From Chitinophagales bacterium (GTDB lineage Bacteria > Bacteroidota > Bacteroidia > Chitinophagales > UBA2359): 39,566 bases of DNA. A program made the translations under genes and the position numbers. The notes beneath the pieces were generated by a model. That model searched no databases, was not told where the DNA came from, and saw only the letters and a program-made list of their open reading frames with translations. Numbering within the stretch: the stretch's first letter is position 1; every line of letters begins with the position of its first letter. This document shows, one piece after another, positions 1,656-3,674 of this stretch. The stretch is taken from the NCBI GenBank assembly GCA_020630635.1, contig JAHDBB010000002.1, positions 1-39,566 of the forward strand, written 5' to 3'.

Positions 1656-3674
1656 ATGATTTTTAAAGATAAAATAGTAAGGTCAGGGATTTTTTCACTT
1701 ATCGCCATGCTTATTATGAATGTTGCAGCCTTTGGTCAAGGTCCAGCAACTGCGGCAAACCCCGGCCTTTTGGGTCCTTGTACCTATTTAAGTGACCAAG
1801 TAACGGTGTCAGGTATTGATTTTAATGCGGTGGCTCCTTATCTACAAACTTACGCTATAAGTGATGCAGCAGGTAACATTGTAGCCTTTGATCCTGCTGG
1901 TAATTTTGGAGCAGTACCTCCTGGTACGTATGATTTATGGGCATTTAACTATGATCCTACAGCTGCGGTACCGAGTGATCCAACAGGATTAACAACGGTG
2001 GCAGATGTTATGACTTTATTGGGGACAGCAGATGTATGTATTGAAGCAGCGGGTCCTTATTCAGTAGATGTTTGTGATGTGGCTTTATTTACAGATGATT
2101 CTTTCTGTGATACCAATGCAACTATAGCCGTTGTTCAAGCAGTACCAGGTACTTTTAATGTAAACTATACGCAAGAATATTACTTAGTAGATGCAACAGG
2201 TGCTATTGTAGGTGGTCCTTCCACCAATGCCCAATTTACCACTCCTGCTATTGGAAATTATACGGTATATGCTGTCAACTATGACCCTGCCAATCCTATT
2301 ACTGTAACCAACCAAGCTGATTTGGATGCTTTGACGGTAGCTGCTGATTGTGCAGAGGTTGCGAGTGGTCCCATTGAAGTGATTAGTTGTGCGCCAATGG
2401 CAGGTTGTACGGCTTTGGCTGGAGAACCCATTCTTACTCCTGAAACAGTATGTTTGTCAGACGCAGGAGCATTTGATCTTTCAACTAAATTCGGAGCAGC
2501 TAGTGGTGGATATGACGATGGTGCTGGCAATTTTGATGCGGTAAATGTTAACTATGTGGCTGTTGACCAAGCAACAGGAGAAATTCTGGGTGTTGCTACT
2601 AGTGCTGCGATGATAGACCTTTCTGGTGCGCCTGTTGGAACGGTAGCCTGTGTTTATCAATTAGCTTATACGCAAGCCTTATTAGATGATGTGACAGGCT
2701 TCTTAGATAACTTACTTTGTAATACTTTGTGTGTTCCTGTTGTGGGACCTTGTTTAGGAGATGTGGGCTATTGTCCTGGTGTAACTCCTGCTGAGTTAGC
2801 TCCTTTCTTGGATTTATTAAACCAATTCTTTGGCTTTAATGAAACTCAAATTTGTAACTTCTTGGACAATCAGATTATCACGATTCCAGACCCAACAGGT
2901 TTAATTGGAGATCAAAGTATTGATTTAGCTGCTAATGGTTTGGATTTCTGTGCAGATAAGTCGAACGCTCCCTATTGTGTGACTATAGAGGCTTGTGTCG
3001 ATATTGCAGTTACTGATCCTTGTAATTGTACAAGTCCCAATAATGTAGGTCCTGGTGCAACAGGTTTGGAGGGTGATTTTGATTTCTTTTATGAGGAAAT
3101 CACCATTACAGCCCCTGCTGGAGCATCTGATTGGGTATTAGATTTTGGTGGTGTTGCGACTTATGATGCAGCAGGTGTAGCCGCTCCTCCAATGATAACA
3201 GATAATATGGATGGAACTTATACAATTGTTGCTTATTTTGCAGCAGGTGATGCTTATACTTTAGATGCAAGTAGTGTGATGGCAGGCGTAGCAGCGGGAA
3301 GTTTAATCGTGAATGGTGGTGGATGTACACCTTGTGTGATTCCTACTCTTTCTGAATGGGGATTAATGACTTTAGCCTTGTTGTTGATGGCGTTTGGTTC
3401 GGTGACTATCGCTGCTAAACAAGTTTCTTTAGCTGGTGTTGGTACTCGTAATATTCCGTTACCAACAGGTAGTAACTTTAGCTTACCATTTAACGCAGTT
3501 ATCTTCCGTAAAGCGATGTACTTGACGATGTTTATCGCATTGATTGGCTTTGCTATTTGTTTTGCTTTGTATAGCGAAATCTTTGGCTCTGACTTAATTG
3601 GTGTGACTATCGCTGGTCCAGTCTTTGCTTACTTAATACACTTACTCTATATCTTAGAGAAGAATAAAAAGTAA
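1656..3674 (+). CDS. IPTL-CTERM surface protein with extended three-TM C-terminal module
   Basis: Signal peptide; CVIPTLSEWGLMTLALLLMAFGS motif followed by about 90 residues with two more hydrophobic segments. Confidence 0.85.
   Translation: MIFKDKIVRSGIFSLIAMLIMNVAAFGQGPATAANPGLLGPCTYLSDQVTVSGIDFNAVAPYLQTYAISDAAGNIVAFDPAGNFGAVPPGTYDLWAFNYDPTAAVPSDPTGLTTVADVMTLLGTADVCIEAAGPYSVDVCDVALFTDDSFCDTNATIAVVQAVPGTFNVNYTQEYYLVDATGAIVGGPSTNAQFTTPAIGNYTVYAVNYDPANPITVTNQADLDALTVAADCAEVASGPIEVISCAPMAGCTALAGEPILTPETVCLSDAGAFDLSTKFGAASGGYDDGAGNFDAVNVNYVAVDQATGEILGVATSAAMIDLSGAPVGTVACVYQLAYTQALLDDVTGFLDNLLCNTLCVPVVGPCLGDVGYCPGVTPAELAPFLDLLNQFFGFNETQICNFLDNQIITIPDPTGLIGDQSIDLAANGLDFCADKSNAPYCVTIEACVDIAVTDPCNCTSPNNVGPGATGLEGDFDFFYEEITITAPAGASDWVLDFGGVATYDAAGVAAPPMITDNMDGTYTIVAYFAAGDAYTLDASSVMAGVAAGSLIVNGGGCTPCVIPTLSEWGLMTLALLLMAFGSVTIAAKQVSLAGVGTRNIPLPTGSNFSLPFNAVIFRKAMYLTMFIALIGFAICFALYSEIFGSDLIGVTIAGPVFAYLIHLLYILEKNKK

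Follow-up and report, generated by a model that had tools for sequence, protein, structure and literature searches.

A two-helix, exosortase-linked domain found fused to IPTL sorting signals or encoded as a separate gene in Chitinophagales

Internal sorting signals and the described systems

Sorting signals of the PEP-CTERM, LPXTG, MYXO-CTERM and GlyGly-CTERM types comprise a motif, a hydrophobic helix and a positively charged inner segment (PMC1569441, PMC11980579), and classical PEP-CTERM signals are found near the extreme C-terminus, with a median of three further residues (PMC1569441). Among the closest described systems is IPTL-CTERM/XrtH (TIGR04174, PF18203, TIGR04177), to which the locus considered here was compared. 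This locus lies in a 39,566-nucleotide stretch of DNA from a Chitinophagales bacterium, hereafter the window (contig JAHDBB010000002.1 of assembly GCA_020630635.1, positions 1 to 39,566; contig C276 of genome G000, a Bacteroidota assembly of 739 contigs), and encodes three IPTL proteins and an exosortase. As in IPTL-CTERM/XrtH, an IPTL motif is followed by a transmembrane (TM) helix, a Cys/Arg/His exosortase is encoded next door and many substrates are present. Here, however, the signal is internal and is followed by an additional two-TM domain, referred to as EXT, and the exosortase scores just under the XrtH cut-off. Whereas PEP-CTERM and similar signals end a few residues past the basic cluster, that cluster corresponds in the window proteins to a first loop (loop 1), beyond which two more helices are found.

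The notion of an internal XrtH site is already on record, since a 175-position model named "midcut-by-XrtH" (NF033207) exists, implying a mid-protein site by name and matching the window proteins over the IPTL stretch. However, the window proteins reached only 17-20 bits against a cut-off of 45, with no match beyond the IPTL motif and first TM helix in the comparison with the profile. Scores did not exceed 22.6 bits in a search of the window's own genome, the best of 20 related sequences reached 24.8 bits (E 1.9e-5), and no protein over the cut-off was found in a draw of 300 Bacteroidota genomes. EXT alone gave no hmmscan match to the NF033207 profile. A centrally located site has also been shown to be cut in HVO_0405 of Haloferax volcanii, a fusion protein and substrate of archaeosortase ArtA (PMC7157517). 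The site is similarly central in the window proteins, but in their genome what follows the site at the C-terminus is a sorting-enzyme-linked component, which every substrate carries. The internal sorting site is itself already known, and EXT matches neither the NF033207 profile nor HVO_0405; the layout described in an earlier note on this DNA is distinct in its tail but not unprecedented in the position of its cleavage site. The open-access literature searched contained nothing on XrtH, IPTL-CTERM, midcut proteins or exosortase accessory proteins in Bacteroidota.

EXT follows the exosortase rather than the cargo

The earlier note had proposed that the IPTLSEWG motif of the first substrate is internal and heads an extension of about 100 residues with three TM segments. 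The open reading frame agrees with this: behind the motif come the anchor helix, a polar loop and two further hydrophobic segments, giving 111 residues from the I of IPTL through the terminal ...LLYILEKNKK, although the start given for the module, 3345, was two codons late (Table 1). The same layout, again as proposed, was found in the products of the genes starting at 4880 and 7007. Substrate 1 scored over the cut-off in TIGR04174 (24.1 bits against 20.5) and in PF18203 (25.9 bits), while the other two passed PF18203 and, with 20.5 and 20.4 bits, stood at the TIGR04174 cut-off of 20.5. None of the three carries its signal at the extreme C-terminus, as 110-111 residues extend from motif to end, compared with 32-41 in short-tailed relatives. 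The extension alone matched no NCBIfam or Pfam model, and it differs from the ordinary short IPTL-CTERM tail.

That the extension is membrane-embedded, a further proposal, was supported by 82 homologous fused tails, 81 of which contained three 19-residue windows with Kyte-Doolittle values >1.0. Net charges in this set (loop 1 +2.7, loop 2 -1.0, C-terminal tail +0.7) fit the positive-inside rule, and the predicted orientation places the passenger and loop 2 outside and loop 1 and the C-terminus inside. An AlphaFold2 model of the module built with 18 sequences contained helices at residues 4-31, 53-78 and 83-110 (mean predicted local distance difference test score 73); a Foldseek search of the PDB with this three-helix model returned no structural relative, the best match being diacylglycerol kinase at E 2.2. 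EXT itself was delimited as a two-TM domain forming the last ~65-85 residues of the IPTL proteins, and among 33 aligned EXT sequences Asp85 and Tyr98 were conserved in all 33, Gly88 in 31, Pro50 in 30 and His101 in 29.

All ten detectable IPTL proteins of the window's own genome were found to carry a module of 105-113 aa in place of the usual short tail, which indicates that the long tail is not a chance occurrence. Modules were alike in 43 of 45 pairs (E<1e-5) and passengers in only 4 of 45, so that the module is conserved independently of the cargo. The same genome encodes four XrtH-like exosortases, in every case with a fused IPTL gene directly upstream, giving four such cassettes.

The stand-alone relatives of the extension for which the earlier note had suggested a search do exist. 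Outward from the window, fused relatives turned up in metagenome-assembled genomes (MAGs) of Chitinophagales and Saprospiraceae, and in other relatives genes of 63-82 aa, encoding EXT alone, were located, with a short-tailed IPTL substrate on one side and the exosortase on the other. Two genomes of the source's order with ordinary short IPTL tails (G064 and G160), for example, have a separate 73-aa gene matching the extension directly upstream of the exosortase. Many more such genes were revealed with a merged EXT profile (A3), the typical order being short IPTL substrate, EXT, exosortase and a gene for an accessory membrane protein (ACC). The search profiles were built from linked genes and many of the genomes are MAGs; the A3 matches obtained outside the order were weak (E 1e-4 to 1e-2), well below the strength of those within it, and were treated as noise. 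A profile built solely from stand-alone genes and run against 8,377 frames recovered 75 fused IPTL tails at E<1e-5 as well as further stand-alone genes and truncated versions of the fused tail; nothing unrelated scored below E 0.01. When their profiles were compared with hhalign, fused and stand-alone EXT aligned at 99.2% (E 1e-19), whereas controls of EXT against the exosortase or ACC families gave 0.3-0.5%, i.e. no homology. By these sequence comparisons the fused and stand-alone forms are homologous. In two loci the stop codon of a short substrate overlaps the start of EXT (TAATG), so that fusion of the neighbours, or splitting of a fused gene, would be an easy evolutionary step, and the N-in orientation of stand-alone EXT is compatible with a short signal that ends C-in.

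Across 399 genomes of the source's order, the exosortase clade (E<=1e-39) and EXT (E<1e-6) were found in the same 42, with thresholds that were chosen after the score gaps had been seen and a Fisher p that is unadjusted and ignores shared ancestry. Ten further genomes of the order (families f62, f64, f67, f75), in which exosortase matches lay at E 1e-25 to 1e-15 and EXT was absent, were classed as containing other exosortases, an assignment that depends on this choice of threshold. Within the source's own family, 13 genomes have both components and 7 have neither. Copy numbers followed the arrangement of the genes. Eight trans-type genomes contained 8 exosortases, 8 EXT and 46 IPTL signals, one EXT per exosortase, and 15 cis-type genomes contained 30 exosortases, 74 EXT and 74 IPTL signals. 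Tail lengths were accordingly bimodal, at 32-41 aa in trans genomes and 102-121 aa in cis genomes (every resolved substrate). The arrangement must have switched between cis and trans three times or more on the exosortase tree, and EXT distances correlate with exosortase distances (Mantel r 0.59; 0 of 2,000 permutations). Taken on sequence, this shows that EXT is tied to the exosortase and not to the cargo.

The exosortase locus and its neighbours

The window exosortase scored 80.7 bits in TIGR04177, under the cut-off of 86 and yet its best match among the named exosortase models, and cleared the superfamily signature TIGR04178 with 53 bits against a cut-off of 23. Its superfamily active-site residues Cys105, Arg146 and His165 were invariant in 24 of 24 aligned exosortases; comparison with plasmids gave one weak match. 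Among 71 exosortase loci, an ACC homologue was found downstream in 68 and EXT immediately upstream in 44, a count in which two "stand-alone" cases are fused genes cut by contig ends. ACC had no match in Pfam or NCBIfam.

Table 1. Positions within the window of the IPTL substrates, the parts of the first module, the exosortase and ACC.
Feature	Position	Strand	Family matches
IPTL substrate 1, 672 aa: signal peptide, passenger, IPTL signal, EXT module	1656..3674	+	TIGR04174, PF18203
IPTLSEWG motif	3339..3362	+	
TM helix 1, the usual IPTL-CTERM anchor, predicted N-out/C-in; model helix residues 4-31	3363..3431	+	
EXT domain: PF..., TM2 (53-78), short outer loop with Asp85, TM3 (83-110) with Tyr98 and His101	3486..3671	+	
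IPTL substrate 2; module at 5963-6295 (111 aa)	4880..6298	+	
IPTL substrate 3; module at 8195-8524 (110 aa); directly upstream of exosortase	7007..8527	+	
XrtH-like exosortase, 198 aa; Cys105, Arg146, His165	8732..9328	+	TIGR04177, TIGR04178
ACC: one TM, extracytoplasmic alpha/beta segment, further hydrophobic helices	9967..10650	+	

Several other features accompany these genes. The product of 538-1614 is related at its N-terminus to the 4880 and 7007 products and contains no IPTL motif or EXT; the gene for substrate 1 begins about 40 nt after it. Three small secreted basic proteins, rich in Lys, Ala and Gln (20-26% Lys), are encoded at 139-507, 4469-4861 and 6637-6948, and each immediately precedes the gene for a large protein whose sequence starts M(K/Q)KIKKY...SYSA (538-1614, 4880-6298 and 7007-8527, respectively). 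In another genome, a small basic secreted protein (L119:2433-2906) likewise precedes a cassette substrate (2934-4385). The intergenic region between exosortase and ACC (9340-9960) contains repeated phrases, e.g. 'cgtcccatcgtccc' and 'agccccgatagtagtggtat', one of which also occurs near 4100.

Possible roles of EXT

To our knowledge, how exosortases recognise their signals is still open, and no described dedicated subunit for an XrtH enzyme was found in the open-access literature and two profile libraries, the sources covered. The explanation that we consider probable is that EXT is such a dedicated subunit, docking or presenting the IPTL signal to the exosortase, and supplied either in trans or, as in the window, in cis. 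One trans copy per enzyme, or a cis copy on each substrate, is the pattern expected of a recognition or presentation subunit. In this mechanism, EXT would pair with the exosortase within the membrane and, at the outer face, dock or present the IPTL anchor helix for the Cys/Arg/His active site; the conserved Asp, at the outer end of TM3, is predicted to sit on this side. A single EXT would serve all substrates in trans, whereas in cis each substrate would bring its own. The exosortase would then cut near IPTL, allowing the passenger to continue to its surface destination, and a three-TM remnant consisting of the anchor helix and EXT would stay behind, presumably to be released or degraded.

The earlier note, which had likewise supposed that cleavage at the motif would leave such a remnant in the membrane, suggested that it might be a handle for the accessory membrane protein. 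A role for ACC as the receptor of EXT was judged unlikely and rejected, since ACC also follows XrtH-like exosortases outside the order, in genomes G194, G023 and G214, where no EXT was detectable nearby. Given the genome-by-genome co-occurrence, the exosortase is the more likely partner.

Several observations nevertheless weigh against a dedicated presentation subunit. XrtH-like exosortases elsewhere in the phylum (G194, G023, G214, G198 and G110) have no detectable EXT, with substrates that are short or none nearby, and EXT is therefore not required by XrtH enzymes generally. Co-inheritance in an operon could give both the co-occurrence and the correlation of distances without physical contact, and both the contact between EXT and exosortase and the cleavage are inferred from sequence. 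Two well-sampled genomes, G404 and G444, are mixed. G444 has 36 IPTL calls with one fused and one stand-alone EXT, the other substrates examined being short-tailed. In G404, with 26 IPTL calls, all tails examined were short except that of the exosortase-adjacent protein, and a single EXT protein of 190 aa combines a signal-peptide-like start with a motif degraded to VPTKFQW (L046:7692-8261; L180:6594-7160). This protein resembles a onetime substrate that now acts in trans, and short tails together with one motif-decayed EXT protein are what would be expected if EXT were supplied in trans. Finally, G722 has one EXT more than IPTL calls, and G399 has one unclassifiable IPTL protein at a contig end.

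That EXT might be an essential second subunit of the sorting enzyme, carried by each substrate for its own processing instead of being produced as a protein by itself, and left in the membrane after the cut, is entertained only tentatively. It was also considered that EXT could be a structural or catalytic subunit completing or activating this exosortase clade, so that a cis-type enzyme would borrow it from each substrate as a substrate-assisted holoenzyme. The 1:1 ratio of EXT to exosortase in trans genomes, the operon position, and the invariant Asp and Tyr and nearly invariant His would all suit this role; however, XrtH-like enzymes outside the order have a similar length and the same Cys/Arg/His residues yet no EXT, and EXT is not homologous to any exosortase segment, making this explanation unlikely.

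The cleaved remnant could instead be a functional small membrane protein acting elsewhere, which the stand-alone gene would produce directly, much as the earlier note had envisaged a separate functional product. Stand-alone EXT does exist and is conserved, and the remnant would contain EXT. However, cis genomes keep EXT on every resolved substrate, although a remnant acting in trans would be needed on only one of them, and the presence of EXT tracks that of the exosortase exactly, so that a separate product is judged very unlikely. By analogy with archaea, EXT might bind or present an acceptor, such as a lipid, to which the cut C-terminus is joined. This role would suit a membrane component that is dedicated to the system and has its conserved Asp on the outer side, but it is judged very unlikely. 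The archaeal cut depends on lipid-synthesis partners, PssA/PssD having been proposed as lipid suppliers for ArtA (PMC7157517). EXT, however, has no enzyme-family match and no structural relative. For XrtH, we know of no acceptor.

Degeneration or gene-end variation, by which long tails would be non-functional read-through or paralogous inheritance, is hardly credible: although Haft et al. (2006) raised the possibility that PEP-CTERM proteins with long tails, of which there are very few, lack function (PMC1569441), it is contradicted by a tail more conserved than the passengers, by the presence of both Asp and Tyr in every one of 33 aligned sequences and by the genome-wide copy-number rule. Random stop-codon read-through was considered and rejected, as was whole-gene paralogy, given the disparity between module and passenger similarity.

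For annotation, the stand-alone EXT genes described here are covered by no Pfam or NCBIfam model, and the tail marks this exosortase clade. Comparative genomics points to a dedicated exosortase subunit in two interchangeable forms, cis and trans, and the existence of these two forms makes a direct test of the role of EXT possible.
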